A DNA stretch of 64,000 nucleotides, from positions 62,001-126,000 of the forward strand of contig JAQBNU010000027.1 of the NCBI GenBank assembly GCA_028288365.1, given 5' to 3'. The notes beneath the pieces were generated by a model. That model was not told the origin of the DNA. It did not search any database and saw only the letters and a program-made list of their open reading frames with translations. Position numbers and translations under genes: made by a program. Source of the DNA: Chitinophagaceae bacterium. GTDB taxonomy: Bacteria; Bacteroidota; Bacteroidia; Cytophagales; Cytophagaceae. Shown here one piece after another: positions 3,605 through 64,000 of this stretch (positions are counted from its first letter, which is position 1; every line of letters begins with the position of its first letter).

Positions 3605-4018
3605 ATGGCAATGAAGATTCGTACCTATGCGCTATTGCAATTCCTTCACCCGATTGCAAAAAAGCCAATGCAGCAATTGCACCGTCAATACTGCAGAATA
3701 AAAGGGAAGCTCTACTTCTCTTCTACTTCCATCCCTTTAATGAAAGCCAAAGTCTGGATCGAGACCGGTCATGGCGCGAAGTTCCCGATTGCTTATTCTT
3801 CGGAAGAAGGCGCCTTCATTATGGATATGCTTACAGGGAGAGGTTCATCCTCTTTGAAGGTAAGTTATTTTGGTAAAGAATATTCTTTTGATAACATCGG
3901 TAATTCTCTGGGCTCCGTATTTCATCCTGGTTTCATGACGACAGATGACTTGGCGTTGGTGTTGGATGTAGAAAAAAATTCGGTGCCGTTTATCCGTCTC
4001 ACCGAAGAAGAAAATTAA
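3605..4018 (+). CDS. Hypothetical protein, 137 residues
   Basis: I do not recognise the family. The first 45 residues are basic (MAMKIRTYALLQFLHPIAKK, then QLHRQYCRIKGKLYFSS), with no signal peptide or membrane segment. The remainder (AKVWIETGHGAKFPIAYSS, GSSSLKVSYFGKEYSFDNIG, DDLALVLDVEKNSVPFIRL) looks like a small alpha/beta or beta-rich domain. The start is fixed by the strong ribosome-binding site. An overlapping longer frame at 3385-3876 has no comparable signal and was not chosen. It converges on the DUF3127 gene across a family D inverted repeat. Confidence 0.55.
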   Translation: MAMKIRTYALLQFLHPIAKKPMQQLHRQYCRIKGKLYFSSTSIPLMKAKVWIETGHGAKFPIAYSSEEGAFIMDMLTGRGSSSLKVSYFGKEYSFDNIGNSLGSVFHPGFMTTDDLALVLDVEKNSVPFIRLTEEEN

Positions 4019-4023
4019 AATTG

Positions 4024-4079
4024 GACAGTTGTCAATGATCGGCAAAGTATACGTTGACTTTGTATCACAGACAACTGTC
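4024..4079. repeat. Family D inverted repeat
   Basis: The 10-bp perfect arms GACAGTTGTC (4024-4033) and GACAACTGTC (4070-4079) flank a 36-bp centre between convergent genes. The right arm also occurs at 45110-45121 and the left arm is its reverse complement, which makes this a member of the dispersed family D. Confidence 0.7.
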
Positions 4080-4092
4080 TATTGATGATTAG

Positions 4093-11573: not shown

Positions 11574-11602
11574 TGTTTTATTCACTGCAATAACATAATG
11601 AA

Positions 11603-11633
11603 GGGCCTCGCTTGTTAGCGGGGCCTTTTTTGT
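11603..11633 (+). terminator. Terminator of the fad operon
   Basis: GGCCTCGC and GCGGGGCC form an 8-bp stem (one G-T pair) around a TTGTTA loop, followed by TTTTTT. It lies 30 bp after the acyl-CoA dehydrogenase stop. Confidence 0.85.
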
Positions 11634-11634
11634 T

Positions 11635-11689
11635 AAGGGACGAGGAACGTAACAAATTGTTGTTCCTCATCCCTCTTAACTCGTCCCTT
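11635..11689. repeat. Family A palindromic repeat
   Basis: AGGGACGAGGAAC (11636-11648) is complementary, with one mismatch, to GTTCCTCATCCCT (11662-11674). A further CTCGTCCCTT ends the element at 11689. It follows directly after a conventional terminator, so it is not needed for that function here. Confidence 0.75.
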
Positions 11690-36564: not shown

Positions 36565-36624
36565 GAAACAGAAAGAGAGCGAAGAGCGATTAATTATTGC
36601 ACTCTTCGCACTCTTTCTGTTTTC
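36565..36624. repeat. Family B palindromic repeat
   Basis: The left arm GAAACAGAAAGAGAGCGAAG (36565-36584) is largely complementary to the right arm starting CTCTTCGCACTCTTTC (36602-36624). It lies between a plus-strand terminator and the end of the minus-strand DUF3050 gene, where it could terminate the latter. Confidence 0.75.
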
Positions 36625-39002: not shown

Positions 39003-39050
39003 AGAAACAGAGCGGAGAATGAAAAAACACTCGCTCTCCGCTCTGTTTCT
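39003..39050. repeat. Family B palindromic repeat (bidirectional terminator-like)
   Basis: Perfect 16-bp arms AGAAACAGAGCGGAGA (39003-39018) and TCTCCGCTCTGTTTCT (39035-39050) flank a 16-nt loop between two convergent genes. No other terminator is visible there. Confidence 0.85.
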
Positions 39051-40979: not shown

Positions 40980-41185
40980 ATAAAAATTAAACGGTGATCA
41001 ATCTTCAAAGTAGATGATCCTTTTGGTTAAAGCCAAGCAATCTAAATTTTTTTATCAAAGGAAGAAGCTTGATATCAAATGTTTAAACGAATAACAGGGT
41101 TGCCACGTAATGGCGTACCTAATCGTAGGTATATTTTTTTAATTGCTTTTACAAACACATGTTGCTTTCCACCAATATATCGTCC

Positions 41186-41212
41186 CTGCTCGCTCGTCCC
41201 TCGTTGCTTAAT
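41186..41212. repeat. Family A repeat (partial copies)
   Basis: CGTCCCTGCTCGCTCGTCCC carries two CGTCCCT motifs in one orientation, matching the right end of the element at 62197-62224. The 300-bp gap 40980-41279 otherwise holds only the palindrome at 41224 and AT-rich DNA. Confidence 0.6.
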
Positions 41213-43604: not shown

Positions 43605-43848
43605 TTAGCGATCAGTAAAAATAAAATAAATCTTAAATGACTATTCACTTATTACACCTCCGCTGAATTAATGACTTCTTGTTGGCGTCTCGCCAACAAG
43701 TGATGGATTAACAACGTGCTTAATCTCTTGTTATAGGGTTGCCTTATCGTTTAACCCGAACAGATGTTGGCGAGACGCCAACATCGAGCATTGCCTGATC
43801 TAGGTGTTGCAGGTGAATAGTCATTAAATCTTATTTATAAACTGACAA
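43602..43848. repeat. Nested palindromic element: family D/outer inverted repeat around two family C hairpins
   Basis: Outer arms AATGACTATTCAC (from 43636) and GGTGAATAGTCATT (43812-43825) are complementary, and flanking CAGT-AAATAAA-like bases extend the pairing on both sides. Inside lie hairpins CTTGTTGGCG/CGCCAACAAG (43678-43700) and GATGTTGGCG/CGCCAACATC (43763-43785). It fills the gap between convergent genes PBP1A and DUF418, codes for nothing, and looks like a MITE or a composite of mobile palindromes. Confidence 0.75.
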
Positions 43849-49087: not shown

Positions 49088-50434
49088 TTAGTACAATTGA
49101 TATTCAGGCATGGAGACAATTTTTAATACCAGTTGTCTGGGTTCGCCGGCTACGGCTAGAAGCATACGTCTGTTGTCAGGACTGGGTTCCGCGCGCAGCA
49201 GGGCCTCTATGATTTCTTCTGTGCTGTGATGAAGCAAGGCAGGTGTTGCGCTGCCGGAAGTTTGAATGGTGTCTGGGAGATTGAAATTGTCTTCGGGCAT
49301 GTTGTCTTTTTCTACAAACGTAATTTTGCCTCCGTTCAATAGTGTGGATGGAATTTTTAAACGAAACATCAAGGTCGTACTGTCGATCCAGTCCTTACCG
49401 CCAGGCCAGCCGGCGACATTAGGTGGATAAAACAAAATCTGATCCATGGATTTTTGTAATTTCAACAAGAGTTCATCGGAAGGGATGATGTCAAATGTTT
49501 TGGAAAATCCCACGATAAAATCTACCGGTGATTTGATGTTCGTGCCCATGTTTCCATCCGAATAAAACCAATCCGAAGTAAATATTTTGCGAAGTAGTTT
49601 ACCCGTATCGTATTGATTGGCATAATAAAAAGTAGTCAGTTCTTCCAGGATCGTTTCATCTACTTTTTCATTCACAAAGAAGGCGTACATTTTTCTACAG
49701 AGAAAGCGAGCGGTTTCTTTTTTTTGTAGCAGTATATCAATGATGTCTTCTCCTGTAAAACTGCCTGTTTGATGCATGAATGTTTTTGAATCGACATCGT
49801 GTGTCTTTTGATTGAATCGAAATTCAAACACATTGTTATCAAAGGTCCAACCCGTGAAAGCCCGTGCAGACTCTTTAATGTCTTGTTCGGTATAATTTCC
49901 TTTGCCGATGGTAAACAGTTCCATGAGTTCACGCGCAAAGTTTTCGTTGGGATGTGCTTTTTTATTTTGTCTGTTGTTTAAGAATTGCAACATGGCGGGA
50001 GATTGTGATACCGCCATCAACAAGTCTTTGAAAGGAGCAAAAGCGTAAGTCCGTTGAATATTGTTCAGTTGTTGTGCCATGTAAGGGTGTTCTACGCGAC
50101 AGGCAAAATGCCCATGCCAGAACAGCGTTGTTTTTTCCAGCAAAAAGTTGGGAGACTGAATGAGTTGTTTCATCCACAGCGTATTCAACTCTTTCACCTG
50201 ATCCCTTAACAGTTTTCTCTGATCACGTTTCTCCACTGGAGAAAGAGTATCGTTGTTGTCTTTGTTAGGAAGATCGTTGAGCGTTACAAGGGTCAATTGT
50301 CCGGCCGTTGCGTTTGTTTTTAATTGATCATTGATTAATTGTTCGGCGGATTTACTTTCCAGTTGCCGGGCTTCGTCTATCGTGATGCCAAACCCTATGC
50401 GGCTGTAGAGATGATAAATGTGTTTCAGTTTCAT
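49088..50434 (-). CDS. DUF1800 family protein
   Basis: A 448-residue protein whose N-terminus KLKHIYHLYSRIGFGITIDE lacks a signal peptide. The DUF1800 core is seen in LIQSPNFLLEKTTLFWHGHF, AVSQSPAMLQFLNNRQNKKA, NENFARELMELFTIGKGNYT, EQDIKESARAFTGWTFDN and FYPPNVAGWPGGKDWIDSTT. The function is unknown. The family co-occurs with DUF1501, which follows 5 bp downstream on the same strand. Export without a visible signal is an open point; the partner may carry it by Tat hitch-hiking (inference). Confidence 0.9.
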   Translation of the reverse strand: MKLKHIYHLYSRIGFGITIDEARQLESKSAEQLINDQLKTNATAGQLTLVTLNDLPNKDNNDTLSPVEKRDQRKLLRDQVKELNTLWMKQLIQSPNFLLEKTTLFWHGHFACRVEHPYMAQQLNNIQRTYAFAPFKDLLMAVSQSPAMLQFLNNRQNKKAHPNENFARELMELFTIGKGNYTEQDIKESARAFTGWTFDNNVFEFRFNQKTHDVDSKTFMHQTGSFTGEDIIDILLQKKETARFLCRKMYAFFVNEKVDETILEELTTFYYANQYDTGKLLRKIFTSDWFYSDGNMGTNIKSPVDFIVGFSKTFDIIPSDELLLKLQKSMDQILFYPPNVAGWPGGKDWIDSTTLMFRLKIPSTLLNGGKITFVEKDNMPEDNFNLPDTIQTSGSATPALLHHSTEEIIEALLRAEPSPDNRRMLLAVAGEPRQLVLKIVSMPEYQLY

Positions 50435-50549
50435 AAATTATTTTTACAGCAAGAGAGGAAGAAAACGGATGCTATAAAGTAGTAAGTTTTCTCGTGTACG
50501 AGATTAAATTCAGATTAAAATTCAAACTCTTTTTTATGGCGTGGCTTGA

Positions 50550-51623
50550 CTAAAGGAACAAAACCTTCTTGGATAAAAAATGTCCCAGGACCTCCGCTTC
50601 TTTCGCCAACAATTTATGTGTGGTAGAGTTGACCGGTTTGAAAAAAGTAGTTTCTAGTTGAATCTGATCTTTTTTGTTCGTGCGGTTCCAGATACCTATA
50701 CCTTGTCCGTTGACAAGGATAACGGGTCTGAAAATACCATTGCTGGAGAATGCGACCTTCTGGTGCTCCAGTGCCAGTGTGGCGCTGCGGTCTTTGTAAC
50801 TGATGATGAACTCATCAAAAGCAGGGAGAAAATGAGCGGAAGGTTTGGCAAGTGATGTCGTTTTCAGATGAGAAGGAAGCCAATAGATTTCATCGCCTAT
50901 TTTTTCCGTGATAAATTTTTCTTTGATTCCCTCCATCGCTTTTTTGGAATCGGTGAGTGAAAGACCTGACCACCAGGAAAAATCTTTTACCGTTGCCGGC
51001 GCGTGACTGGAAAAATAAATCGTGGCCAGTTTTACCAAGGCTTCGTCACGGTGCAGTTTTTTTGTGTGGGCGACTCGTTCATCCAGCAAGGCATAGGTTT
51101 GTTTTTTTTGTTTCACCCAACCACTGCAGGCAATGCCTTCCAGTTCGGCGCGCAACATGAAGTGTACGGCACGTTGCGGATCGACGATCATTTTATGTTG
51201 CTCCAGCACTGTCATCAATTCTTCCCGTGTCAGGTGGTGATTACCCGACAACGCTTTTTCAATCAAGCCGTTGCTTTTGGTATATGTTTTTTCCGTCAAC
51301 TCCAATGCCTTATCTCTGGATCGGGCAGAAGCTTTGATGTGAGGAGCGGTGAGCTCCAGCATCCAGCGGATGTTGTCAGCGGCCACCAAGTGCCAGGTTG
51401 GGCGTAGCACATGCGTGCGAAGGATGGAACCTTTGTGCAATGCTTTTTCTATTTCTTCTTCTGTGGTGTGCGGCAAACGTATACCGATCGCCCATTTGGA
51501 CATGGCGTAATCCTGTGCCTGTAGCGCGCCCATCCATTGAACAAGTGCTGTCGGCTTATTCAATGAACTTCTGCTAAGTTGCTGATTGCTGAGACGAAGG
51601 GAGGCGATGTCCTTAAGATTCAT
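50550..51623 (-). CDS. Winged-helix DNA-binding protein (HTH_42 / YcaQ-AlkZ related)
   Basis: A 357-residue cytoplasmic protein. ASLRLSNQQLSRSSLNKPTA and LVQWMGALQAQDYAMSKWAI begin the winged-helix module. GSILRTHVLRPTWHLVAADN carries the R-T-x-x-x-R-x-T-W-H line of the family. LTREELMTVLEQHKMI and DFSWWSGLSLTDSKKAMEGI are further winged helices, and FLPAFDEFIISYKDRSATL is a conserved C-terminal segment. Relatives AlkZ/YcaQ are DNA glycosylases for crosslinks with a catalytic QxQ. The QAQ at GALQAQDY fits that motif, so a repair role is plausible for this member. Confidence 0.85.
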   Translation of the reverse strand: MNLKDIASLRLSNQQLSRSSLNKPTALVQWMGALQAQDYAMSKWAIGIRLPHTTEEEIEKALHKGSILRTHVLRPTWHLVAADNIRWMLELTAPHIKASARSRDKALELTEKTYTKSNGLIEKALSGNHHLTREELMTVLEQHKMIVDPQRAVHFMLRAELEGIACSGWVKQKKQTYALLDERVAHTKKLHRDEALVKLATIYFSSHAPATVKDFSWWSGLSLTDSKKAMEGIKEKFITEKIGDEIYWLPSHLKTTSLAKPSAHFLPAFDEFIISYKDRSATLALEHQKVAFSSNGIFRPVILVNGQGIGIWNRTNKKDQIQLETTFFKPVNSTTHKLLAKEAEVLGHFLSKKVLFL

Positions 51624-51713
51624 AAGTTAGGGGTTGTTCCGGCTAAACGAAATGCGTTACTTTGTAATCCGGTTACTAGTATAATTGTATTTTAATTAAG
51701 ACGCTCCACTCTT

Positions 51714-53027
51714 ATGATGAAAAATTTCTCTTCCCGTTATACTTACTTTTTTCTTCTCGGTCTCTTTGCACTGAGTTTTACGACAAAGGTTTCAGCACAA
51801 TTGTGCAATAACCGAGTAGTAGCAGGATACCTGCCAGATTATAGAGATCCAAACACAGTTGATTTCACCAAACTCACCCATGCATACTTTGCGTTCCTTA
51901 CGGCAACAACAACGGGTGGTATCACGGCTCAACAATCGGCTCAAATAACAACAATGAATTCCTTTCTGACCAATGCCAATGCAGCAGGGACAAAAAAATT
52001 GGTCACGGTGGGATCTAGCAATATGTCTGGCATGACAGCCAATGTAACGCGTACACGTTTGTTTGCCGACTCTTTGAGAAAGTATTGTCAGCACCACGGC
52101 TTTGACGGTGCCGATATCGATTGGGAAGGTATTTCAAATGCGACAGACAGCACGCGCTACGCCTCTTTGGTGAAGGTGCTACACGATACGTTAACGAAAT
52201 ATAATTTAGAGTTGGTCCTCACGATTGGCTTTGGTGATTACTGGATGCAGTGGGTTTCGAATACCACTGTAAAACGGGCAAGCTTTATACAAATCATGGT
52301 ATATGATCAGACAGGTACCTGGGCACAGAGTCCTTTTGGAAATCCATCTACCTTTCAACATTTTCTGGACGCAGAAACCTATTGGGTCAACCGTGGCATT
52401 ACAAGAGATTTTATCGTAATGGGTTTACCCTTTTATGGCTATCAATTTGCGTCTACGGCTGGAGGCAATGCTACACCTTATACGTATGAGGCGATTCTCG
52501 AACGATTCCCGGACATGGACAGTTGCAGCAACGAAACAGCATGTAATGATTATACTTTTTTTGATGGACCAAATCTAATCCGTAAAAAAGTAAACTATGC
52601 CATTGCACAAGGATTCAAAGGGGTGTTCATTTGGGAAATGGGTCAGGATGCCAGCACTTGGGAAAAATCTTTGCACAGAAGAGTATGGGAAGAATACCAA
52701 CGTGCCTGTGCAGGTTTGTCTTACGACGACATCTGTACGACAGACCAGGAGCCTTGTGTAGCAACTTCAACGACAGATGCTCAGTCAACGGAACAAACGG
52801 TATGGTGTGAAACGAACGTAGGCATTTTACATTTTGCAGCTGATATTATTTCGCAAGGATCTTACCATCTTACCGTCACAGATGAGATGGGACGTGTGGT
52901 GTATAGTGACAATAACCTTCAGCAGCCTACTCTTACGCTACCGGGCAATTTACCAAACGCTGTATATGTAGTATACCTGACCAACGACAAACAAAAATAT
53001 ACCAGCAAGGTTTTGATTACACGTTAA
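51714..53027 (+). CDS. Secreted GH18 chitinase-like glycosidase with T9SS sorting domain
   Basis: A 437-residue protein. The signal peptide (MKNFSSRYTYFFLLGLFALS, cleaved after VSAQ) precedes a GH18 TIM barrel (about 28-340): NRVVAGYLPDYRDPNTVDF, the catalytic line FDGADIDWEGI with D131, D134, D136 and acid E138, FIQIMVYDQTG, VMGLPFYGYQF and GVFIWEMGQDAS. The DxxDxDxE motif is complete, so hydrolysis of chitin or related GlcNAc polymers is expected. The C-terminal 75 residues (TEQTVWCETNVGILHF through SKVLITR) are a type A sorting domain for surface attachment or secretion. A 29-bp palindrome follows the stop. Confidence 0.92.
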   Translation: MMKNFSSRYTYFFLLGLFALSFTTKVSAQLCNNRVVAGYLPDYRDPNTVDFTKLTHAYFAFLTATTTGGITAQQSAQITTMNSFLTNANAAGTKKLVTVGSSNMSGMTANVTRTRLFADSLRKYCQHHGFDGADIDWEGISNATDSTRYASLVKVLHDTLTKYNLELVLTIGFGDYWMQWVSNTTVKRASFIQIMVYDQTGTWAQSPFGNPSTFQHFLDAETYWVNRGITRDFIVMGLPFYGYQFASTAGGNATPYTYEAILERFPDMDSCSNETACNDYTFFDGPNLIRKKVNYAIAQGFKGVFIWEMGQDASTWEKSLHRRVWEEYQRACAGLSYDDICTTDQEPCVATSTTDAQSTEQTVWCETNVGILHFAADIISQGSYHLTVTDEMGRVVYSDNNLQQPTLTLPGNLPNAVYVVYLTNDKQKYTSKVLITR

Positions 53028-53030
53028 AAT

Positions 53031-53100
53031 AAAAGGGACGAGCCAGGAGGTACGAGTAACGTTATGTTTCATTACTCGTACCTCCTGGCTCGTCCCTTTT
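53031..53100. repeat. Family A palindrome with 29-bp perfect arms (bidirectional terminator-like)
   Basis: Arms at 53031-53059 (AAAAGGGACGAG.. start) and 53072-53100 (..CTCGTCCCTTTT end) are exact reverse complements around a 12-nt loop. It begins 4 bp after the chitinase stop and ends 4 bp before the GAPDH stop, so it is placed to end both transcripts; the outer A4/T4 tracts give a T tail either way. Confidence 0.92.
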
Positions 53101-53104
53101 ATCG

Positions 53105-54100
<996 letters not shown>

Positions 54101-54355
54101 CTAATTAAAATTAAAGGTGTGAAAAATGAATGATTTGGTTTTATAACAGAAGGAATGTCTTTTTAATTCAAATGGCGTTTGTTTTTAGGAGGTTGCTTTT
54201 TCATTGATTTGAAAATGATGAAGTTGAAGGTACTTCCAATGGGCTTATCCATGCGCTGTTTACAAATGAGTTTCTATTTTGTCTTGATAGAGAAATAGAC
54301 TATCCTTGAAAATTCCTGTTTTAGTTTTATCTTCATACTCTATCAGACTACTCTC

Positions 54356-55614
54356 ATGAAAAAAGAAAGATACATTTTCCTATTATTCATTTTTCTTTCA
54401 TTCACAACGCATGCACAAACAGTCAATGTAAGCACCGCGACACAACTGCAAACGGCCATCAATGCGGCTACACCAGGACAGACCATTGTATTGGCAGATG
54501 GCGTTTACATTCGTTCCGGTGGATTTTATGTGAATGCAGGTATCAACGGTACAGCGGCACAGCGGCACAGCCTATTACGCTGGTAGGAAATGCCAACACC
54601 ATTATTTCGTCGGCTAACTTAAACACGGGTTATGGTTTTGCTTTGAAGGGAAACAACTATTGGGTGTTGAATGGCTTCGCCATTTACAATTCTAAAAAAG
54701 GATTGGTGCTGGATAACAGTCACCACAATGACATCAAAAATATCAACGTCAATAAAATTGGAGATGAAGGCATTCACCTGCGCACCTACAGCTCATTCAA
54801 TACCGTAGAAAATTGTTATGTCGATTCAACTGGCATCGTATCTACTGGTACGGGAGAAGGTATGTACGTGGGTTCCGCGACCAGCAACTGGGCCACGTAT
54901 ACCGGAGGAGATCCTGATACGTGCAATTATAATGTATTGACAGGAAATTCATTTGGTGCACACATCGTATCTGAAAATATAGACATTAAAGAAGGCACAT
55001 CACACGGTACGATTTCTTATAATACCTTCAATGGTGCAGGACTAAACGGGCAGAACTATGCAGACTCCTGGTTGGACATGAAAGGAAGTTATTATAGCAT
55101 AGCTTGCAACACAGGCGCCAATACGATTGCAGACGGTTTACAATCGCACATCAATTACACAGGTTTCGGAGATTACAATATTTTTTCAGGCAATGACTTA
55201 ACTGTGGGCTCAACAGGTTACGGTATCAATGTTGCCACCTCTTCCAGCAACGGTACAGCGACACATAATGTGGTATGCTCCAACAATACGGTGAGTGCGG
55301 GTGCTGTAGGTTTAACGAATGTGACCACTCAAACATGTTCCGGTGCTTCTTGTCTGGTGACAAGTGTTGCTTCTCCTGCTGAAACTTCTTTGTACAACCT
55401 TTCTCCCAATCCCGCCAACGATCACATCACGGTGAACTTGTCAAAAGAGAATACAGCTACGTCTTATGTGATCACCGATGTATTAGGGCAAGTAAAAAAA
55501 TCAGGAAACTTCGATTCCTTTTCTGTACATATTGACATTCAGGAATTGGTGCATGGCATGTATATCTTTACGCTTTCGAATACCAATAGTAGCGTACGTT
55601 TTATTAAACAATAA
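54356..55614 (+). pseudogene. Beta-helix (pectate/polysaccharide-lyase-like) protein with T9SS domain, split by an 8-bp tandem duplication
   Basis: The first frame (MKKERYIFLLFIFLSFTTHA signal, then VNVSTATQLQTAINAATPGQ) ends at 54586. ACAGCGGC occurs twice in tandem (54551-54558, 54559-54566). Removing one copy restores a single frame: GINGTAAQPITLVGNANT joined to GYGFALKGNNYWVLNGFAIY and on to 55614, about 416 residues in all. The body is a right-handed beta helix (NNYWVLNGFAIYNSKKGLVL, GDEGIHLRTYSSFNTVENCY) like chondroitinase-B or pectate lyases. It ends in a type A sorting domain (LYNLSPNPANDHITVNLSKE). The allele is out of frame here; slippage could restore it. Confidence 0.85.
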
Positions 55615-55616
55615 AA

Positions 55617-56366
55617 TTACCCAATAAACCGCTGCATCAGCGCTTCTTTTTTATTCGGAGATACATCCACATAAGACTGATCGCTCATGATGAGCTGACC
55701 TCCTTTGCCTTTGAGGTATTTGGTGACGTGTTGAATGTTGATGAGATGCGATTTGTGTACGCGCACGAAGTTGTAATCTTCCAACATGGTTTCGTAATGT
55801 TTCAGCGTACGACAGATCATGATTTTGCGATTGCCGGTGAGAATGAAATCCGTAAAATTATCGTTGGCTTCGCAACGAATGATTTCTTTGACCTGGATCA
55901 CTTCAAATCCATCCAATAGAGGGAGCACAATTTTTTGCGACTGTTTATTTTCTGCATGGATATTTTCCACTAAAATTTTCGTATGCAAAATTTCCTGGTG
56001 ATCGTCTTTCTGTTTTTTTATTTTTTCAACTGCGGCAATCAACTCGTCGATTTCAATCGGTTTTAAAATATAATAAGCAGCACTCAGGTTCAGCGCTTTC
56101 AGCGCGTAGTTACTGAAGGCGGTTACGAACACCGTTTCAAAAGAAATGTCGGGCACTTGTTCCAGCAAATCAAAGGCATTGCCGTAAGGCATTTCTACAT
56201 CGAGAAATACAATGTCAGGATGGTGCTGACGAATGGCTTCAATGCCCTGCTTCACCGAATTGGCCTGCGCCATCAACTCTACATCGGGACAGTAGCGCGA
56301 TAAGTAGTTCTTCAGCGTGTCTCGGCTGGCTTCTTCGTCATCGACTATAATGGCTCTAAGCTTCAT
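55617..56366 (-). CDS. LytTR-family response regulator
   Basis: A 249-residue regulator. ATG at 56366 (MKLRAIIVDDEEASRDTLKN) is preferred to an upstream ATG that would add 22 residues inside the kinase gene. The receiver has D9/D10 and phospho-acceptor D56 in IVFLDVEMPYGNAFD, T in VFVTAFSNYALKAL and K in AYYILKPIEIDEL. LytTR domain: IVLPLLDGFEVIQVKEIIRC, EANDNFTDFILTGNRKIMIC, FVRVHKSHLINIQHVTKYLK. Its start overlaps the kinase stop by 11 bp. It ends 2 bp from the stop of the convergent beta-helix pseudogene. Confidence 0.94.
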   Translation of the reverse strand: MKLRAIIVDDEEASRDTLKNYLSRYCPDVELMAQANSVKQGIEAIRQHHPDIVFLDVEMPYGNAFDLLEQVPDISFETVFVTAFSNYALKALNLSAAYYILKPIEIDELIAAVEKIKKQKDDHQEILHTKILVENIHAENKQSQKIVLPLLDGFEVIQVKEIIRCEANDNFTDFILTGNRKIMICRTLKHYETMLEDYNFVRVHKSHLINIQHVTKYLKGKGGQLIMSDQSYVDVSPNKKEALMQRFIG

Positions 56367-58305
56367 GCAGGAGGTGTGGGGTTTGTGTGATGTGTACCGT
56401 AACTTTTGTTCCGCTGCCATTGATTGGATCAAGGTCTTCTATGCTGACGCGCATCCTGGTCTTGTACAATTCATTGATGATGGCAATGCGAGCTGCTGTA
56501 TTTTTTAATCCGATAGAATCTTTGTCTTTCTGATTAGGCGTTTTCAATTCCTGTGATTTTTTTCTGCCGATGCCGTTGTCAGAGATAATCACGACTAGCT
56601 CTTCCCCTAAAGGCTGTATGTTTACCTGCAATTGTCCTTTCTCTTCTTTGTAGCGCAAGCCGTGCCAAATGGCGTTTTCAATATAAGGCTGAATAAGCAT
56701 GGGTGGTATGTGTATTTGCTCCATCGATAAATCTTCGGACACCGTCAAGGTATAATCAAATTTATCTTTAAAGCGTGCATGTTCAAGCGAAAGGTACAAT
56801 TGCAGAATGCTCAATTCAGTAGACAAACTGATGAATTCGTATCTGGAGTTTTCCATCACGGTGCGCATCAGTTTGGAGAAATCCGATAGGTATTTGTTGG
56901 CGGAACGTTCGTCGCTTTTAGAAATAAAATTATTGACAGAGTTTAAGGCATTGAAAATAAAATGCGGATTCATCTGACCGCGCAACGAACGCAGTACCAG
57001 CGATTGACTGGCCACTCTTCTTTTTTTAGAATTGAGGTATACGATCCAGGAACTGACCATCACAATCAACAAACCAAGAATCAAGGCATAGATGACCAGA
57101 CGAAAAAACTTCTTTTCTTCTTTGAGCAATTGAATGGTGGCATCATTCAATTGCATGTCTTTTTCCAATAGATCTATTTGTTTTTGTTTCAGAGAAAGCT
57201 CCTCGTTGAAGCTTAAGATGGTGTTGATTTTTTCTTCTCTGGAACTCAACAGGGAGTCTTTCGCCTCCACATACAATTGATAATGTTCCAGTGCTTTGGA
57301 AAAATTTTGTTTTTGTTTATATACAGAAGAAAGCGCTTCCTGCGATTTGGCCTCGACTTCCAGCTGTCCACTTTGTTTGGAAAGGGAAGCACTTTTTTCT
57401 AAATAGGTCAACGCTTGCTCTGGTTTTTTCTGTGTCAGGTACAACTGTCCGATTTCTAAATAATCTTCTGCGAGGGCTTCTTTGTCGTTGCGCTTATCGT
57501 TGACGTCTGCTTTCTTTTTTCTCAACTCCAATTCATCAGCCGTTTTTCCTTCCAGCTTCAACGTATTGATCATGTTTTTGTAAGAGATATCTAGTTCTTT
57601 TTCGTCCTGGTGTTCGATGGCAATGTCTTGCGAACTTTGGTAGGCTTCCTTCGCGGCTTCTGCTTTGTTTTGCTGGATGTAGACATCACCAATGTTGTTG
57701 TGCGCCTCCATTTCACCGGACTTGTTTTGTTTTTTTCTTTCTTTGCGGAGTACGTCTTTATAAATGGTTAAGGCTTCTTCTGTCTTGCCTTGTAATTTGT
57801 ATACGTTAGCAATATGATTTTTCATGTTCAATACCTGATCCGGATTTTTTTGATCTTCGGCTTCCAGGTGTCCGTTTGTATATTGATTTAAAGCTTCGTC
57901 GTAGTTCTTGTTTTTTTCATACGCTTCTCCCAATTGCTCGCGTAAGCTTAAGGCTTGTGCACGCTTATTTTCTTTTTGAAAAATCAACAGCGCTTTCGTG
58001 TAAAAATTAATGGCTTGCACATAAAGTGTTTGATTGACATTTAAATTTCCCAATACCACATAGGTGTTAGCTTCTCCTATTTTATCACCTTCTTTTAAAC
58101 TGATGTTTAATGCTTCTTCTAAGTAATCTAGTGCGGCATTAGGATCTTTGGGAGATATACTTTCCGCTTTTTGCAATAAGGAAGGCACACTGTTTTGTTC
58201 GCGCTTTGAGGAAGGAGCGACAGAGGATTTCATCCGTTTCTGCTGGCTGTAGGCAAAGAGTGGAAGGAGTAGGCAAAGAAGAAAACAGATGCGTTTCGAA
58301 AGCAT
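56356..58305 (-). CDS. TPR-containing LytS-type sensor histidine kinase
   Basis: A 649-residue kinase. ATG at 58305 (MLSKRICFLLCLLLPLFAYS) gives a signal peptide. Residues about 45-370 are TPRs (GNLNVNQTLYVQAINFYTKA, QGKTEEALTIYKDVLRKERK, AEAAKEAYQSSQDIA) forming a periplasmic sensor. A coiled coil (SLKQKQIDLLEKDMQLNDAT) and one membrane helix (LVIYALILGLLIVMVSSWIV) follow. The kinase core has H448 in QMNPHFIFNALNSVNNFIS and an HATPase with MLIQPYIENAIWHGLRYKEE and ISDNGIGRKKSQELK. It is paired with the LytTR regulator by overlap. TPR-type LytS kinases are a Bacteroidota speciality; the signal is unknown. Confidence 0.93.
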   Translation of the reverse strand: MLSKRICFLLCLLLPLFAYSQQKRMKSSVAPSSKREQNSVPSLLQKAESISPKDPNAALDYLEEALNISLKEGDKIGEANTYVVLGNLNVNQTLYVQAINFYTKALLIFQKENKRAQALSLREQLGEAYEKNKNYDEALNQYTNGHLEAEDQKNPDQVLNMKNHIANVYKLQGKTEEALTIYKDVLRKERKKQNKSGEMEAHNNIGDVYIQQNKAEAAKEAYQSSQDIAIEHQDEKELDISYKNMINTLKLEGKTADELELRKKKADVNDKRNDKEALAEDYLEIGQLYLTQKKPEQALTYLEKSASLSKQSGQLEVEAKSQEALSSVYKQKQNFSKALEHYQLYVEAKDSLLSSREEKINTILSFNEELSLKQKQIDLLEKDMQLNDATIQLLKEEKKFFRLVIYALILGLLIVMVSSWIVYLNSKKRRVASQSLVLRSLRGQMNPHFIFNALNSVNNFISKSDERSANKYLSDFSKLMRTVMENSRYEFISLSTELSILQLYLSLEHARFKDKFDYTLTVSEDLSMEQIHIPPMLIQPYIENAIWHGLRYKEEKGQLQVNIQPLGEELVVIISDNGIGRKKSQELKTPNQKDKDSIGLKNTAARIAIINELYKTRMRVSIEDLDPINGSGTKVTVHITQTPHLLHEA

Positions 58306-58489
58306 GTGATAGGGTTCTATTACCAACAAATGTACTGGATAATCAGTTATTTAGATGCGCAAAAGCGGATAAAAATTTCCCTCAGTGAGAAGAGCCTTTC
58401 GCGGAGTGAAAGCTGTAGTTGCCTAAGTCTGCGTTTTCGAATATCAGTGGACTGCGTAAGTTCAATTCATAAACCAAAACGAAGGTCCC

Positions 58490-59689
58490 ATGAAAAAGCC
58501 CATTCATTTCAAATCATACCTGTTGCTTGCTGCTGCTTTAACAGGCGCTATGGTGTTGTTCTATGCAGGAAACGGAACAGCCAAATCTCAACGGGAAAAA
58601 ACGTTTGTGCTGTGTCACAAACCTGCACAACCGGTGGATCACACGCAAACGGCAGCGACAAAAAAAATAAAACTGGCGTTGCTGCTCGATACGAGCAACA
58701 GCATGGATGGCTTGATCAATCAGGCCAAGTCGCAACTGTGGACGATTGTCAATGAATTGGCTACTGCTAAATGTGACGAAGCGAAACCGGAGGTACAAAT
58801 CGCTTTGTACGAATACGGAAACGATCGTTTGCCTGCGAGCGAAGGATACATTCGCTTGGTGACACCATTAACCAATGACCTCGATAAAATTTCTCAGGAC
58901 TTGTTTGCTTTGCAAACCAACGGTGGCAGCGAGTTTTGCGGACAGGTCATTCAAACGGCCTGCAAGCAATTGGATTGGTCCACAGACGGAGGTGATTTAC
59001 AAATCATTTTCATTGCAGGCAACGAACCCTTTACACAAGGTTCTATCAATTACCAAACCTCCTGCTCTGATGCGAAGCGTAAAAACATTGTGGTGAATAC
59101 CATCTTCTGCGGAGACTTTCAGGAAGGCATCAATATCTCTTGGAAAAATGGAGCAGACCTCACGCAAGGTACCTATGCGAGTATAGAACAAAATTCTAAA
59201 ACGGTTTTCATTCCTTCTCCTTACGACGATAAAATTGATCAGTTGAATACACAGTTGAACAATACCTACATCGAATACGGAAGAGAAGGCAGACAGAAAA
59301 AAGCAGAACAGGAAATACAAGATGTGAATGCAGAAAGTTATGGCAATGCCAATAAAGTGAACCGTGCCGTTTCTAAATCGACACACGTTTATAAAAACAA
59401 ATCGTGGGACATGGTAGATGCCTCAGAAGACAAAGAGTTTGATGTGACGAAGGTGACGAAAGACCAATTGCCGGAAGCGATGAAAAACATGACAGACGAT
59501 CAGAAGAAAGATTATGTCAAACAAAAAACAGTGGAGCGCGAAAAAATAAAAACAGAAATTCAGGACCTCAACAAAAAGCGTTCTGAATACATTGCCAGCA
59601 AACAAAAAACAGAAGATACTAACATGCTGGATAAGTCCATGATCAATGCTATCAAGACACAGGCGGAGAAAAAGAATTTCAAATTTTAA
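58490..59689 (+). CDS. Exported von Willebrand factor A domain protein
   Basis: A 399-residue protein. The N-terminal hydrophobic stretch SYLLLAAALTGAMVLFYAG is a signal anchor or signal peptide. The vWA domain starts at about residue 60 (IKLALLLDTSNSMDGLINQA) with an intact MIDAS start D67-x-S69-x-S71, plus Thr (LVTPLTNDLDKIS) and Asp (WSTDGGDLQIIFIAGNEPF) candidates for the rest of the metal site. The C-terminal 140 residues are charged and helical (KDQLPEAMKNMTDDQKKDYV, VEREKIKTEIQDLNKKRSEY) and probably form a coiled coil. Metal-dependent protein binding in the periplasm is inferred. A shared terminator follows. Confidence 0.85.
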   Translation: MKKPIHFKSYLLLAAALTGAMVLFYAGNGTAKSQREKTFVLCHKPAQPVDHTQTAATKKIKLALLLDTSNSMDGLINQAKSQLWTIVNELATAKCDEAKPEVQIALYEYGNDRLPASEGYIRLVTPLTNDLDKISQDLFALQTNGGSEFCGQVIQTACKQLDWSTDGGDLQIIFIAGNEPFTQGSINYQTSCSDAKRKNIVVNTIFCGDFQEGINISWKNGADLTQGTYASIEQNSKTVFIPSPYDDKIDQLNTQLNNTYIEYGREGRQKKAEQEIQDVNAESYGNANKVNRAVSKSTHVYKNKSWDMVDASEDKEFDVTKVTKDQLPEAMKNMTDDQKKDYVKQKTVEREKIKTEIQDLNKKRSEYIASKQKTEDTNMLDKSMINAIKTQAEKKNFKF

Positions 59690-59705
59690 TAATTGAATGA
59701 TAAAG

Positions 59706-59733
59706 CAAGAAAACGCTGGCAGGCGTTTTCTTG
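59706..59733. terminator. Bidirectional terminator between vWA and CDF genes
   Basis: The 11-bp perfect stem CAAGAAAACGC (59706-59716) / GCGTTTTCTTG (59723-59733) has a 6-nt loop between convergent genes, with T-rich DNA on the plus side. Confidence 0.8.
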
Positions 59734-60627
59734 TTATTCAGAATAATGATAACTCAATTTATTTTTAGGCGCTACCTGATCCATTATGCCCTGGCATGTA
59801 TCAGCGGCTGCTATCAGGGTTTCTATGCTTAGGGGCTGATGGATTTTATCTTCTATTTCAAAATTCACCCACAACACACCGGCTACATTAACGATGGTGA
59901 AATGTGTAGCATACAAAGAAAAAATAGGAACAGCGGCAATGAATTGTTCAATCAATTGCTGCTGTGTTTTTTTATCGACAGAGGAGACAGAAAGCAATTG
60001 CATGTTTTCAACAAATAACCTCACCGGATTCACACACATATAAATGGAAAAGAAAATGCAAACCACCGGATCAACATAACTCGAGAACAGCCCATAACCG
60101 TTGCGTTGGAGTGCATAAGAGAAAGCAAAAGCACCGATGATGGAAATGTTGGAGATGGTATCTATCCTCCATTCGAGCGCATCTGTTTTTAGCAGAGAAG
60201 AATTTAATTTAACAGAGACTCTTTGCAAATAAATCGAACAAAAAGAATTTAAAATAAGTGTAACGCCGGAGTATAAAAATAAAATACCGTGTTCCGCAGC
60301 AGGAGGACCAGAGAAGATAGATCCCACAGACTCTCCGATGGCTTTGATACAAATCAAAATGATCATCAGGTTGCGGATCAAATTGAGAATGGGAATGAAC
60401 CCGGAATAACCCAGTGGATGTGTTTCAGATCCAGGCCTCTCTTGCAAGCGCGATACGTAGATCGTCACAAGACCAATGATACCGCTGATGACGTACGAAC
60501 TGGCATCCAGTTCTACGATGTTGGAGTTGGTCAGCTCGTTAAACACCAATCCCCAAATCATTAAGAGGACAACAAAGGTTAAAGAAAGTTTTAAGTTTTT
60601 ACGTTCGTAAAGGTAAGTATTCACCAT
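59734..60627 (-). CDS. Cation diffusion facilitator (CDF) family transporter, atypical metal site
   Basis: A 297-residue inner-membrane protein with about six membrane segments (LKLSLTFVVLLMIWGLVF, SSYVISGIIGLVTIYVSRL, ILNLIRNLMIILICIKAIG and more), then a cytoplasmic ferredoxin-like domain (SIETLIAAADTCQGIMDQVA). THPLGYSGFIPILN matches the HP-x-G-Y loop after TM2 of CDF proteins. In TM2 the usual DxxxD is LDASSYVI, with only the first Asp; in TM5 the usual HxxxD is EWRID. These changes suggest a substrate other than zinc or altered transport. A 19-bp perfect palindrome lies 10 bp upstream of the start. Confidence 0.85.
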   Translation of the reverse strand: MVNTYLYERKNLKLSLTFVVLLMIWGLVFNELTNSNIVELDASSYVISGIIGLVTIYVSRLQERPGSETHPLGYSGFIPILNLIRNLMIILICIKAIGESVGSIFSGPPAAEHGILFLYSGVTLILNSFCSIYLQRVSVKLNSSLLKTDALEWRIDTISNISIIGAFAFSYALQRNGYGLFSSYVDPVVCIFFSIYMCVNPVRLFVENMQLLSVSSVDKKTQQQLIEQFIAAVPIFSLYATHFTIVNVAGVLWVNFEIEDKIHQPLSIETLIAAADTCQGIMDQVAPKNKLSYHYSE

Positions 60628-60636
60628 CGCATAGTG

Positions 60637-60655
60637 TGGTCAAATTATTTGACCA
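60637..60655. promoter_or_regulatory. Perfect 19-bp palindrome upstream of the CDF gene
   Basis: Arms TGGTCAAAT and ATTTGACCA around a central T sit 10 bp upstream of the CDF start codon, inside its promoter or leader. The short symmetric form is typical of a TetR- or MarR-type operator rather than a terminator. No regulator gene is adjacent. Confidence 0.6.
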
Positions 60656-60673
60656 AATTAGAAAAATAAAACG

Positions 60674-60958
60674 TTACCATAGCACATCTTGTATCTCTTT
60701 CATTTTATCAAAGAGTGATTTGGCGAAAGGACAAATCGGAATGATCTTCACTTTCTTTTCTCTGGCCATTTTTACGGCTTCCATGACCAGTTGTTTGCCG
60801 ATACCCTTACCTCCAAAGGCAGCGTCTACTTCTGTATGGTCGATGGTAAATTTAGTTTCACCTGCCCAGCTGTAGGCAAGACTTCCAGCTTCTTTACTGC
60901 CTTCCACGGCTTTGAACAAACCGTGTTTTCCGTCGTCTTCGTGTTCTATCGTGATCAT
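60674..60958 (-). CDS. Small GNAT-family N-acetyltransferase (NATD1-like)
   Basis: A 94-residue protein of the short YjdJ/NATD1 branch of the GNAT superfamily. EDDGKHGLFKAVEGSKEAGS and LAYSWAGETKFTIDHTEVDA give the first strands. FGGKGIGKQLVMEAVKMARE is the acetyl-CoA pyrophosphate loop (Q/RxxGxG form, GKGIGK). VKIIPICPFAKSLFDKMKE is the C-terminal element with the conserved Cys/Pro-x-x-K line. The acceptor is unknown. It is on the same strand as the CDF gene, 46 bp upstream of it. Confidence 0.9.
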   Translation of the reverse strand: MITIEHEDDGKHGLFKAVEGSKEAGSLAYSWAGETKFTIDHTEVDAAFGGKGIGKQLVMEAVKMAREKKVKIIPICPFAKSLFDKMKEIQDVLW

Positions 60959-61026
60959 GAGGTGTACTTATATTTTTTGTACTCTGATAAATAATGCGGT
61001 AAAGTAATTCATATTTCACGAACAGG

Positions 61027-61104
61027 CTGTCTTGCCCCTAAATCCCCTGAAGGGAACTTGATGAGAGCGAAGAAACAGAGAGAGAACGAAAGTTTCTCCG
61101 CTCT
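61027..61104. repeat. Family B repeat plus CCCCTAAATCCCC-type dispersed motif
   Basis: AGAGCGAAGAAAC (61064-61076) is complementary, with one mismatch, to GTTTCTCCGCTCT (61092-61104). Just upstream, CCCCTAAATCCCCTGAAGGG (61035-61054) resembles a short sequence often scattered in Bacteroidota genomes (from memory). It lies at the 3' end of the pirin gene and may terminate it. Confidence 0.6.
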
Positions 61105-61106
61105 TC

Positions 61107-61982
61107 TTATTCCAGGTAACCGAATTTCCCCATGTTATAATCATCGATGGCTTCTACCAGTTCCGCTCTGGTATTCATGACAAAGGGACCTTGCGTGGCG
61201 ATGGGTTCATGGATAGGCTCACCGCTCAAGACCAATACAATGGCATTGTCCAGCGCTTCGATCGTAAACTCTTCTCCATCATTTTGAAACAACACAAATT
61301 GATCGGTTGTTGCGGTTTCCGCACCGTTTACTTTTACATTTCCTTCTACGATCAGCAACGCGGTATTGTATGTAGCTGGAAAAGAAAACGCAGCTTTACC
61401 ACCTTTGTTTAATTTAGCATTTTGTAAATGTACAGGAGTAAAAGTAAAGGCGGCACCTTTCACGCCCTGGTATTGTCCGGCGATGATTTCAATCGTACCA
61501 GCATTGTCAGAAAGTTGAACCACTGGAATATTTTCTTTGGTGAGTCCCTGGTATTTCGGTTTAGATAGTTTGTCTTTCGCTGGCAGGTTTACCCACAACT
61601 GTACCATTTGAAAATCACCACCTGTTTTACTGAATTCTTCTTCGTGGTATTCTTTATGTAAAATACCGGAAGCAGCAGTCATCCATTGTACTTCTCCTTC
61701 TCCGATGACACCACTGTTGCCGGCGCTGTCATGGTGTGCGACTTTTCCTTTGTAAGCAATCGTTACTGTTTCAAATCCTCGGTGCGGATGTACACCTACA
61801 CCTTTGGGTTTTGCAGATGGAGGGAAATTAAATTTAGAATTATAATCCATCAGGATAAACGGACTCATCCGTCTCATGCTGAGGTGAGCGGCACTTGGAA
61901 TAAAATTATGTACGCGAAATCCATCTCCTACGTAGTGAGGTGCTGGCGGTGCAATAACGGCTTCTATATGTTTTGTGCTCAT
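61107..61982 (-). CDS. Pirin family protein
   Basis: A 291-residue bicupin. The N-terminal cupin has the metal-binding line VGVHPHRGFETVTIAYKGKV followed by AHHDSAGNSGVIGEGEVQWM and TAASGILHKEYH, matching His-x-His, His and Glu ligands of pirins. QMVQLWVNLPAKDKLSKPKY links to the second cupin (SFPATYNTALLIVEGNVKVN), which ends in PIATQGPFVMNTRAELVEAI. Pirins include quercetinases and redox-responsive cofactors; the substrate here is unknown. It is a single gene. Confidence 0.95.
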   Translation of the reverse strand: MSTKHIEAVIAPPAPHYVGDGFRVHNFIPSAAHLSMRRMSPFILMDYNSKFNFPPSAKPKGVGVHPHRGFETVTIAYKGKVAHHDSAGNSGVIGEGEVQWMTAASGILHKEYHEEEFSKTGGDFQMVQLWVNLPAKDKLSKPKYQGLTKENIPVVQLSDNAGTIEIIAGQYQGVKGAAFTFTPVHLQNAKLNKGGKAAFSFPATYNTALLIVEGNVKVNGAETATTDQFVLFQNDGEEFTIEALDNAIVLVLSGEPIHEPIATQGPFVMNTRAELVEAIDDYNMGKFGYLE

Positions 61983-62051
61983 ACGTTTTGCGTTTTAGTA
62001 TGATACAAAGATACAGTAGTGTGGATGGCGTTACATTGACCTAGGATAAGA

Positions 62052-62224
62052 AAGGAGGAACGGGAGATCAGGGACGAGGAACGAATTAACACGTTGTTGG
62101 CGTCTCGCCAACAACCAGGCTGAATAAACCTGTTTCATACCAACACTTGTTGGTGGGACGCTAACAAGAAGTAAAAGAAATGAAAACAAATAATATGGTT
62201 CCTCGTCCCTGCTCTCTCGTCCCT
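62052..62224. repeat. MITE-like composite: family A terminal inverted repeats around two family C hairpins
   Basis: The left end (about 62056-62082, ending AGGGACGAGGAAC) and right end (62198-62224, starting GTTCCTCGTCCCT) are imperfect 27-bp inverted repeats. Inside are GTTGTTGGCG/CGCCAACAAC (62093-62115, perfect) and CTTGTTGGTG/CGCTAACAAG (62146-62168, diverged). It lies between the pirin start and the Crp/Fnr stop and encodes nothing. Confidence 0.75.
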
Positions 62225-62225
62225 A

Positions 62226-62810
62226 TTAAAGGTGATTCTTCGCTAGCTCCTTCCTCACGCGGCTCAAGCTTTCAGGTGTGATGCCCAGATAAGAAGCGAT
62301 CATCCATTGTGGTACACGCAAGGTAAGATCAGGATAGAGGCGAATAAAATCGAGGTAACGTTTTTCTGCGGTGGCGCTAAGAAGCAGGTTGATTCTTTTT
62401 TGCAAATGACGGATGTGATTTTGCAAAGCCATTTCATTGAATTGAGTAAAGGCACTGTTGATTTCCGAAGCGCGCAGCATGAAGTCTGCATCCAGCAATA
62501 CGACCGCGGTGTCTTCCACTGCTTCAATAGAAAAATCGGAAGCTTCGTGAAAGTAGGCGCTGCTGCGGTCGCTGACGAACCAGTTCTCTGGCCCGAATTG
62601 TATGACATGTTCTTTGCCCGCGTCATCTGTTGTAAAAGAACGCAGCAATCCTTTCTCCACAAAAAAAGTATAATGACAAATTTCTCCGGCATGCAAGAGA
62701 AATTCTCCTTTGCGAAATTTTCTGGATGTTAACGTGGCGGTCAAAGAAAGAACTTCTGCTTCGGACAGTTTTGCTTTTTCTTTTAAGTAGGCTTGGAAGT
62801 TTTCTAACAT
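62226..62810 (-). CDS. Crp/Fnr family transcriptional regulator
   Basis: A 194-residue regulator. The cyclic-nucleotide-binding-like beta roll covers residues about 10-110 (RKFRKGEFLLHAGEICHYTF, FVEKGLLRSFTTDDAGKEHV, QFGPENWFVSDRSSAYFHEA). The C-terminal part (YPDLTLRVPQWMIASYLGIT, PESLSRVRKEL) is a helix-turn-helix of the short Bacteroidota type. The cAMP-binding RxS motif is not evident, so the effector may differ. It is followed by the MITE-like element. Its targets are unknown. Confidence 0.92.
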   Translation of the reverse strand: MLENFQAYLKEKAKLSEAEVLSLTATLTSRKFRKGEFLLHAGEICHYTFFVEKGLLRSFTTDDAGKEHVIQFGPENWFVSDRSSAYFHEASDFSIEAVEDTAVVLLDADFMLRASEINSAFTQFNEMALQNHIRHLQKRINLLLSATAEKRYLDFIRLYPDLTLRVPQWMIASYLGITPESLSRVRKELAKNHL

Positions 62811-62848
62811 AGGAAAACGCAGTTGAATTTTATGATCATGAGGTTCAG

Positions 62849-62888
62849 GGGACGAGCGAGGGACAAGATCTTCCTAGCTTGTCCCGCC
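62849..62888. repeat. Family A repeat
   Basis: GGGACGAGCG (62849-62858) precedes GGGACAAG (62860-62867), which pairs with CTTGTCCC (62878-62885). It overlaps the end of the Cdd1-like gene and may serve as its terminator. Confidence 0.6.
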
Positions 62889-63203
62889 AAATTTTTTCTT
62901 CCTGATTTCTGCGTCTTTTGTTTTGCTATCGACTTTTACTTTATCCATCCAGTGCCACCATTTTAATTTTTGGGCTTCTCGTTTTTCATTGGGTGTCTCC
63001 GCATAATAAACGGCGCATCGAAACGTATACAACATGCAAATATCTTGTACTTCACCACGCAGATTGTTGTGTAAAACATACAATTTTTCAGGATCTTGTT
63101 TTTTCAAATCCGCGATGGTTCGAAATCCCAATTCGTACAAGTCTCGTGCAACGGCTTTGCCCACGCCAGGTATTTGTTGAAATTCTTTTAGTGAAGTATT
63201 CAT
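62874..63203 (-). CDS. Helix-hairpin-helix protein, pathogenicity-locus Cdd1 family
   Basis: A 109-residue basic protein. QQIPGVGKAVARDLYELGFR is a helix-hairpin-helix DNA-binding motif (IPGVGKA). TIADLKKQDPEKLYVLHNN and CMLYTFRCAVYYAETPNEKR complete the Cdd1 domain (PF11731 type), followed by QKLKWWHWMD. The tail is lysine-rich. Nonspecific DNA binding is expected; no process is established. The stop lies inside a family A repeat. Confidence 0.88.
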   Translation of the reverse strand: MNTSLKEFQQIPGVGKAVARDLYELGFRTIADLKKQDPEKLYVLHNNLRGEVQDICMLYTFRCAVYYAETPNEKREAQKLKWWHWMDKVKVDSKTKDAEIRKKKFGGTS

Positions 63204-63296
63204 GGCATCAATGAATAGTTGTGGTATCTGATTCTAGTAGGAGGAAGAAAAATATTTCCAGCGTTTTTGTTTAGTTTATTCCTCTCCGCTCGGTGC

Positions 63297-64000
63297 TTAT
63301 TTTGCTAACGGAAGCGTCACCATAAACCGGCTTCCCTTTCCAACGGTGCTTTCCACGTCTAAGGTGCCTTGGTGTTTTTCAACAAATTCTTTGCAAAGAA
63401 TTAATCCCAATCCTGTACCAGTTTCATCTTTTGTTCCTATGGCTATTGTTTTTTTATCTAACCTAAACAAATCATTTAAAAAGGAGACGGGCATCCCAAT
63501 GCCGTTGTCAGATACAGTTAGTTTCACCCACTGATGGGCTGTTCCATCAAGGAGTAATTCCGCAGAAATTTCTACCGTACCATGTTCATGCGTAAACTTA
63601 ATGGCATTGGCCAATAGGTTGCGAAATATGGTATGTATCATATGCGGATCGGCAAATAGAAGATGGTCTTCCTTCAAGTGATTGATCAGCAATATTTTTT
63701 TATGACTGGCCATCGGACGCAATAACTGAATGTTTTCTTCTACCAATTCATTTAACGACACACGAACAGGGTTAAAACTGATGTTCCCCGTTTGGCTATT
63801 GGCCCATAGCAGTACATTATTGATGAGTCGAGATATGTTTTCCAGACTGGAACGAAACAGTTGGGTGACTTCTTTGCGTTCTTGTTCATCCATCAGATCT
63901 TCGTCCATCAATTCAGTCAGCAACAAAGAAGAAGCAACCGGACCTTTCAGGTCATGAGAAAGGATAGAGAAAAACTTGTCTTTGCTGACGTTGGCTTCTT
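63297..64000 (-). CDS. Sensor histidine kinase, C-terminal part
   Basis: The frame continues to the right edge of the window, so the N-terminal sensor is missing. The visible part, about 234 residues, holds HisKA with DKFFSILSHDLKGPVASSLL (phospho-acceptor His near the edge, around 63955) and HATPase_c: IFRNLLANAIKFTHEHGTVE (N box), TVSDNGIGMPVSFLNDLF (G1), GTGLGLILCKEFVEKHQGTL (G2) and GKGSRFMVTLPLAK. All ATP-binding boxes are intact. No response regulator is present on the visible side. Confidence 0.93.
   Translation of the reverse strand, partial: EANVSKDKFFSILSHDLKGPVASSLLLTELMDEDLMDEQERKEVTQLFRSSLENISRLINNVLLWANSQTGNISFNPVRVSLNELVEENIQLLRPMASHKKILLINHLKEDHLLFADPHMIHTIFRNLLANAIKFTHEHGTVEISAELLLDGTAHQWVKLTVSDNGIGMPVSFLNDLFRLDKKTIAIGTKDETGTGLGLILCKEFVEKHQGTLDVESTVGKGSRFMVTLPLAK

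Follow-up and report, generated by a model that had tools for sequence, protein, structure and literature searches.

Gene-end hairpins with arms of tandem seven-base words carry different words in sister species of Bacteroidota

What is a perfect palindrome that takes up almost all of the space between two convergent stop codons? Dispersed palindromes in bacteria are usually explained as REP elements, with a conserved sequence and a transposase, as DNA uptake signals (DUS) or as unrelated transcription terminators. We examined this question for an element in a contiguous 64-kb stretch of a genome from an uncultured Bacteroidota genus (JAQBNU010000027.1; hereafter the window). A first-pass annotation had assigned the element to a family of dispersed palindromes, 'family A', used at gene ends. 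The counts reported here come from pattern scans together with about 0.86 Mb (864 kb) of sequence from the species of the window (G000) and about 0.73 Mb from two of its three sister species (G002 and G003; the third is G001).

The element at 53029-53102 consists of two 31-nt arms (53029-53059 and 53072-53102) that are 100% complementary and enclose a 12-nt loop (53060-53071). The arms are thus as perfect as had been described, and slightly longer than the 29 bp given. Both convergent stop codons adjoin the hairpin, that of the GH18 gene on the plus strand at 1 nt and that of the GAPDH gene (minus strand, 53105) at 2 nt, rather than at the 4 bp first reported. A/T tracts flank both outer ends, the RNA fold has an energy of −59.4 kcal/mol (z = −13.9), and the stem has CCC followed by UUUUAU on the plus strand and CCC followed by UUUUAUUUU on the minus strand; this is the stable stem with a U-rich tract that characterizes an intrinsic terminator. 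A simple terminator scan missed the site owing to the 12-nt loop and long stem, and no Rfam family matched within 50000-64000. Because the stem is strong, both strands are U-rich and no space is left for another signal, the hairpin is likely to serve both genes, GH18 and GAPDH, as an intrinsic terminator acting in both directions, a prediction that agrees with the earlier proposal. The GAPDH gene of the window is an additional, diverged copy (53% identity to the orthologues of the genus and to the gene on contig C121, and 58% to that on C2), so no orthologous comparison is possible at this particular gene end.

Sequences related to these arms are dispersed. The octamer GGGACGAG has 9 matches in the window compared with 0.71 expected (a number reached by none of 100 shuffles) and 114 in the 3.8-Mb genome compared with 61 for a reversed-pattern control. 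Of the four genomes of the genus, only G000 and G002 have more matches to the octamer than to its control, and comparing genomic copies side by side shows it to be only part of the element. Palindromes at 11635, 41186, 53031, 62056/62198 and 62849 had been said to share both GGGACGAG and AGGGACGAGGAAC; the former is present in all of them, but the latter is common only to the copies at 11635 and 62056/62198. Likewise, the family is dispersed, but not every named copy is a palindrome: that at 41186 is one-sided and separates divergent genes for a histidine kinase and a PBP, and that at 62849 has only a short hairpin. The copy at 11632-11688, flanked by genes for an acyl-CoA dehydrogenase and a desaturase, lies directly 3′ of an ordinary intrinsic terminator (11602-11630), and the 62056-62224 element reaches the stop codon of a Crp-like gene. 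Hairpins made of other words also occur in the window (Table 1), one of them (36566-36622) with 7 nt between it and the stop of the gene at 36630-37409(-).

The outer arms of the 62056-62224 element enclose a palindrome pair, TTGTTGGCG(TCTC)GCCAACAA. This is a second palindrome family, mostly paired, which was seen in the window at 43680-43783 and 62093-62170, the latter nested within the family A arms, and also in sister species.

Table 1. Repeat elements and flanking genes in the 64-kb window (language A is the word set of family A)
Feature	Position	Strand	Words or remarks
GGGACGAG matches	11637, 11680, 41193, 53035, 53089, 62071, 62202, 62216, 62849	+, -, -, +, -, +, -, -, +
Decayed hairpin, AGTTGTC-type words	4013..4090	.	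GGACAGTTGTCA; convergent gene end
Imperfect language A hairpin	11632..11688	.	GGGACGAGGAAC ... GTTCCTCATCCCTCTTAACTCGTCCC
Heptad hairpin, other language	36566..36622	.	AGAGCGA/AGAAAGA words; convergent spacer
Heptad/hexad hairpin	39003..39050	.	AGAAACAGAGCGGAGA; convergent spacer
One-sided language A array without inverted partner	41180..41200	-	GGGACGA-GCGAGCA-GGGACGA
Secreted GH18 (chitinase-like) protein carrying a T9SS type A sorting domain	51714..53027	+	
Perfect heptad hairpin, language A	53029..53102	.	GGGACGA-GCCAGGA-GGTACGA at 53035-53055
Type I GAPDH, diverged extra copy	53105..54097	-	
Imperfect language A outer arms	62056..62224	.	GAGATCA-GGGACGA-GGAACGA / GGGACGA-GAGAGCA-GGGACGA-GGAAC
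Language A fragment, short hairpin or remnant	62849..62885	.	GGGACGAGCGAGGGACAAG..CTTGTCCC; between two minus-strand genes

The arms are in-phase chains of seven-base words (GGNACGA, GCNAGGA, GAGATCA and similar). Heptamers found seven positions to either side of GGNACGA are overwhelmingly GGNACGA, GCNAGGA, GAGATCA, GAGAGCA, GTGAAGA and similar, and the chain in the left arm of the 53029-53102 hairpin recurs as its reverse complement at 53076-53096. In 864 kb of G000, autocorrelation peaks at lags of 7, 14 and 21 appear in intergenic DNA and are absent from coding sequence, and runs of three GNNANNA units number 42 in intergenic DNA, compared with 2-14 for control patterns. A motif-free test that covered all intergenic hairpins with arms of at least 18 nt gave a lag-7 identity within arms of 0.39 in G000, 0.58 in G002 and 0.56 in G003, exceeding every neighbouring lag. 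The arms are therefore heptameric tandem repeats in the sense of in-phase, intergenic seven-base units; they are not arrays of one identical unit in direct orientation only, given that a single arm mixes different words and the arrays form inverted pairs. Among 42 language A hairpins from three species, in-phase identity between arms was 96.7% within a hairpin and 77.1% between hairpins (P ~ 2 × 10−20) and the left arms were distinct in 38 of 42, so the two arms of a hairpin vary together. Some copies are one-sided or imperfect. Perfect arms had been taken to suggest recent arrival, which is not specifically supported: homogenization of the arms or selection for pairing would account for them equally well.

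Several heptad word sets exist, of which family A represents one; we refer to them as languages, and they are largely species-specific. Besides language A, we distinguish C (AGTGATC/AGTGGAC/AGTTGTC words), T (TTAGTNG), E (CTGARAA), D (AGAGCGG/AGAAAGA words, mixed with six-base AGAAAC units), M (GAGATCA/GAGATGA) and S (GAGTATG). Exact patterns matched in G000, G001, G002 and G003, respectively, 22, 2, 14 and 5 times for A, 0, 54, 295 and 371 times for T, 0, 2, 0 and 151 times for E, and 45, 0, 0 and 0 times for C (AGTGATCAGTGGACAG), these being counts of matches and not of loci, as long arrays yield overlapping matches. AGTGATC is found only in the species of the window, TTAGTNG in its three sisters and CTGARAA almost only in one sister. 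Language A was absent from all 144 other relatives outside the genus, and an exact 19-base scan of 84,980 species, which may leave out the window's own genome, found clear matches only in three sister MAGs of the genus; a wide host range for language A is thereby rejected. Isolated matches in Rhodobacter, a haloarchaeon, a Pirellulaceae MAG and one unassigned MAG had no inverted partner in the flanks examined. T arrays occur in 20 of the 103 genera of the order and E arrays in 8, and several of the T and E examples fetched from outside the genus (L205, L209, L219, L221 and L222) are again inverted pairs.

Inverted heptad arrays of other genera include L222:2613-2736 (G061), with CAGTTTT arms around a GC-rich hairpin, L205:2780-2946 (G009) and L221:2509-2797 (G092). 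A long direct CTGARAA array at G003:C5:7874-7996, with overlapping matches over at least 120 nt, suggests that heptad words grow by slippage.

Comparison of orthologous spacers shows that the hairpin can often stay at the same gene end while both of its arms acquire other words. At 51 conserved non-divergent junctions compared between G000 and its sisters, inverted heptads were present in both species in 13 cases, in the sister only in 9 and in G000 only in 4; the association between orthologues (length-stratified permutation P of about 0.001) is indicative, as many G000 loci and sister contigs were picked for containing language A, so that densities are biased and the association may be inflated. 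None of 1,020 shuffled spacers passed the detector. The two species had no word set in common at 8 of the 13 junctions with heptads in both. At the hisB-hisH junction, where the flanking proteins are 93-97% identical, three species have three word sets: 31-nt arms of AGTGATC words in G000, 31-nt arms of TTAGTCG words in G002 and 22-nt arms of CTGARAA words in G003. Another junction (L016:2667-2732, L156:7562-7614 and L161:12176-12230) has language A in three species in a different word order, with both arms changed together. The orthologous spacer of the 62056-62224 element has no language A element in G001 and G002, and measures 73 nt compared with 243 nt. The first-pass annotation missed the organization of the arms into seven-base words, the additional word families and this rewriting between species at the same gene end.

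The use at gene ends that it proposed is borne out. Convergent spacers hold 19 of the 41 placed intergenic language A copies, compared with 20% expected (P = 1.3 × 10−4), and divergent spacers hold 4; 15 of 18 codirectional copies are closer to the upstream stop than to the downstream start. The median distance to a stop codon is 2 nt for convergent and 4 nt for codirectional language A copies. For heptad hairpins of all languages it is 4 nt, with 32 of 38 nearer a stop, compared with 23 nt for non-heptad hairpins; as gene calling simply took the longest ORF, stops are exact and starts are not.

We consider it probable that the 53029-53102 element belongs to a class of fast-evolving hairpins that sit at gene ends and have tandem-heptamer arms. 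Arm complementarity would be kept by arm-to-arm copying, by selection for pairing or by both, and the copying might proceed via template switching or quasi-palindrome correction during replication. Copying between loci would homogenize the words within a species and give rise to dialects, and gene ends may be the places where such inserts are tolerated or useful. The most economical inference combines arm-to-arm copying (or selection for pairing) within a site with copying of words between sites. It is possible, if unlikely, that a trans-acting system (a nuclease/polymerase or a recombination pathway) writes and rewrites inverted heptad arrays at gene ends. If so, the gene-end 'language' of an entire genome would switch from one sister species to another with the hairpins staying put, and bacterial non-coding DNA would show a novel form of concerted evolution. 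We found no agent responsible for spreading the words, given that the Y1 transposases carry other repeats and that an RVT_1 search returned no reverse transcriptase in G000, G002 and G003, three of the four genomes of the genus; a reverse-transcriptase writer common to the genus is unlikely for the latter reason.

Could the hairpins simply be ordinary intrinsic terminators that share GC-rich words by chance, with termination as the conserved feature? We regard this as improbable. It would fit the gene-end position, the strong stem and the U-rich flanks on both sides, and language A hairpins are T-rich at both arm ends (mean at the poorer end of 4.2 compared with 2.3 per 10 nt), but neither a heptad vocabulary common across loci nor a species-by-species swap would be expected of such terminators. 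Moreover, an ordinary terminator was detected in 36 of 53 convergent spacers with heptads, an upper bound for separate terminators because the detector can score the heptad hairpin itself (as at 53028-53104), and in 57 of 95 without (P = 0.38). Heptad hairpins as substitutes for ordinary terminators are rejected, as this is no negative association. The ordinary terminator often lies inside the loop of the heptad hairpin (L025, L029, L087 and L169:5690-5792), and the hisB-hisH site lies within an operon, a position at which strong termination would carry a cost. Termination therefore appears to be the role of some copies and not the defining function of the class.

A purely mutational origin, by heptamer slippage and hairpin template switching without selection or a dispersal agent, and with rare ectopic copies of founder arrays, also seems rather improbable. 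SbcD is a component of a palindrome nuclease. No SbcD above the family cut-off was found in G000-G003 (L225-L228), whereas 56 of 98 genomes of surveyed relatives have it, and its loss could let long palindromes, including perfect 31-bp arms, persist. The loss is at most permissive, because SbcD-positive genera (G009, G061 and G089) also have inverted heptads. Direct arrays without an inverted partner do occur, and heptameric tandem repeats are over-represented in bacteria (PMC4692102, PMC4679880), as this origin would have it, but neither the preference for gene ends nor the recurrence of a hairpin at the same gene end in another word set is easily explained in this way.

Very unlikely is the reading of the words as uptake-like signals, recognized by an uptake or recombination receptor and spread by biased transformation as inverted pairs at gene ends, with dialects following changes of receptor. 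The Neisseriaceae DUS offer a parallel in species-specific words and inverted gene-end pairs (PMC3630211), but they number thousands, compared with tens to a few hundred matches here. The words described here are also degenerate, tandem in a phase of seven and drawn from several sets per genome, and the language A arrays counted in G000 are almost all intergenic (3 of 24 in ORFs).

That the hairpins are REP/REPIN elements mobilized by a TnpA-REP (RAYT) tyrosine transposase, which the first-pass annotation had raised, is hardly credible: they are dispersed, extragenic and palindromic, and the genome has three Y1_Tnp genes, but none of these is flanked by a language A array, two of the three have other palindromic repeats (GCTACCGAGATGAGGTCCCTGACGGGACTGAA beside L001 and CGCAGGGTCCTCTGCGAGAGACCCTGCGGGGACA beside L003), and the arms are variable heptad chains and not a single conserved palindrome, with GTAG/GTGG within 8 nt of an arm in only 4 of 42 hairpins, so that both the head and the repeats flanking a Y1 gene, two defining features, are missing.

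Separately, Y1 (IS200/TnpA-REP-like) genes at L102 (7564-7908 and 8052-8138) and L103 (9632-10408) have inverted REP-like repeats of their own (CTACCGAGATGAGGTCCCTGACGGGACTGAA; CGCAGGGTCCTCTGCGAGAGACCCTGCGGGGACA), forming small RAYT-like units unrelated to family A. G000, G002 and G003 also contain abundant REPIN-like inverted pairs of CTGTCTTGCCCCTAAATCCCCTGAAGGGGACTTT, 50-100 nt apart and often at convergent gene ends (L079:661-819, L069:4592-4731, L091:18268-18429, L147:6858-6993 and L175:5870-6000); their loops differ and sometimes contain a terminator.

Under our preferred reading of a fast-evolving class of heptad hairpins, pairing at the gene end appears to be conserved while each species replaces the whole of its sequence with different seven-base words. 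Two questions become testable: the source of seven-base periodicity in bacterial intergenic DNA, previously reported only in direct repeats, and how short dispersed sequences are homogenized across a genome without an obvious transposon. Terminator or REP annotation of single genomes in Bacteroidota may in places be describing heptad arrays.

The known systems each resemble these hairpins in part. REP/BIME elements with RAYT (Nunvar 2010, PMC2817692) are likewise dispersed extragenic palindromes at gene ends, and orthologous REPs also keep their palindromicity while changing; however, they have a fixed GTAG/GTGG head, one palindrome per family and a linked rayt gene, in contrast to heptad chains with no head and no linked transposase. 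The TAACTGA repeats of Beggiatoaceae, cyanobacteria and some Bacteroidetes (MacGregor 2015, PMC4679880) are seven-base, intergenic and tandem, occur in Bacteroidetes alongside other heptamer repeats and, read in another phase as CTGATAA, come close to the CTGARAA words. They are direct (169 direct sets and one indirect), of a fixed word and mostly just upstream of start codons, whereas the hairpins described here are inverted pairs of variable words at stop codons. The GGGNATC repeats of Xanthomonas and Nostoc (Rehm 2015, PMC4692102) are also heptameric, intergenic, dispersed and near stop codons on the sense strand, but are direct and G-rich, with proposed G-quadruplexes and no inverted arms. 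Inverted DUS at terminators (Frye 2013, PMC3630211) share the species-specific dispersed word and the inverted pairs, but consist of a single 10-12-mer that has a known receptor and occurs thousands of times, coding DNA included; their dialects are the closest parallel to species-specific words that form inverted pairs at terminators. The open-licence literature searched contained no account of inverted heptad arrays at gene ends. Published heptamer repeats are direct arrays of a fixed word, and inverted arrays of variable words at gene ends would be what is new here.
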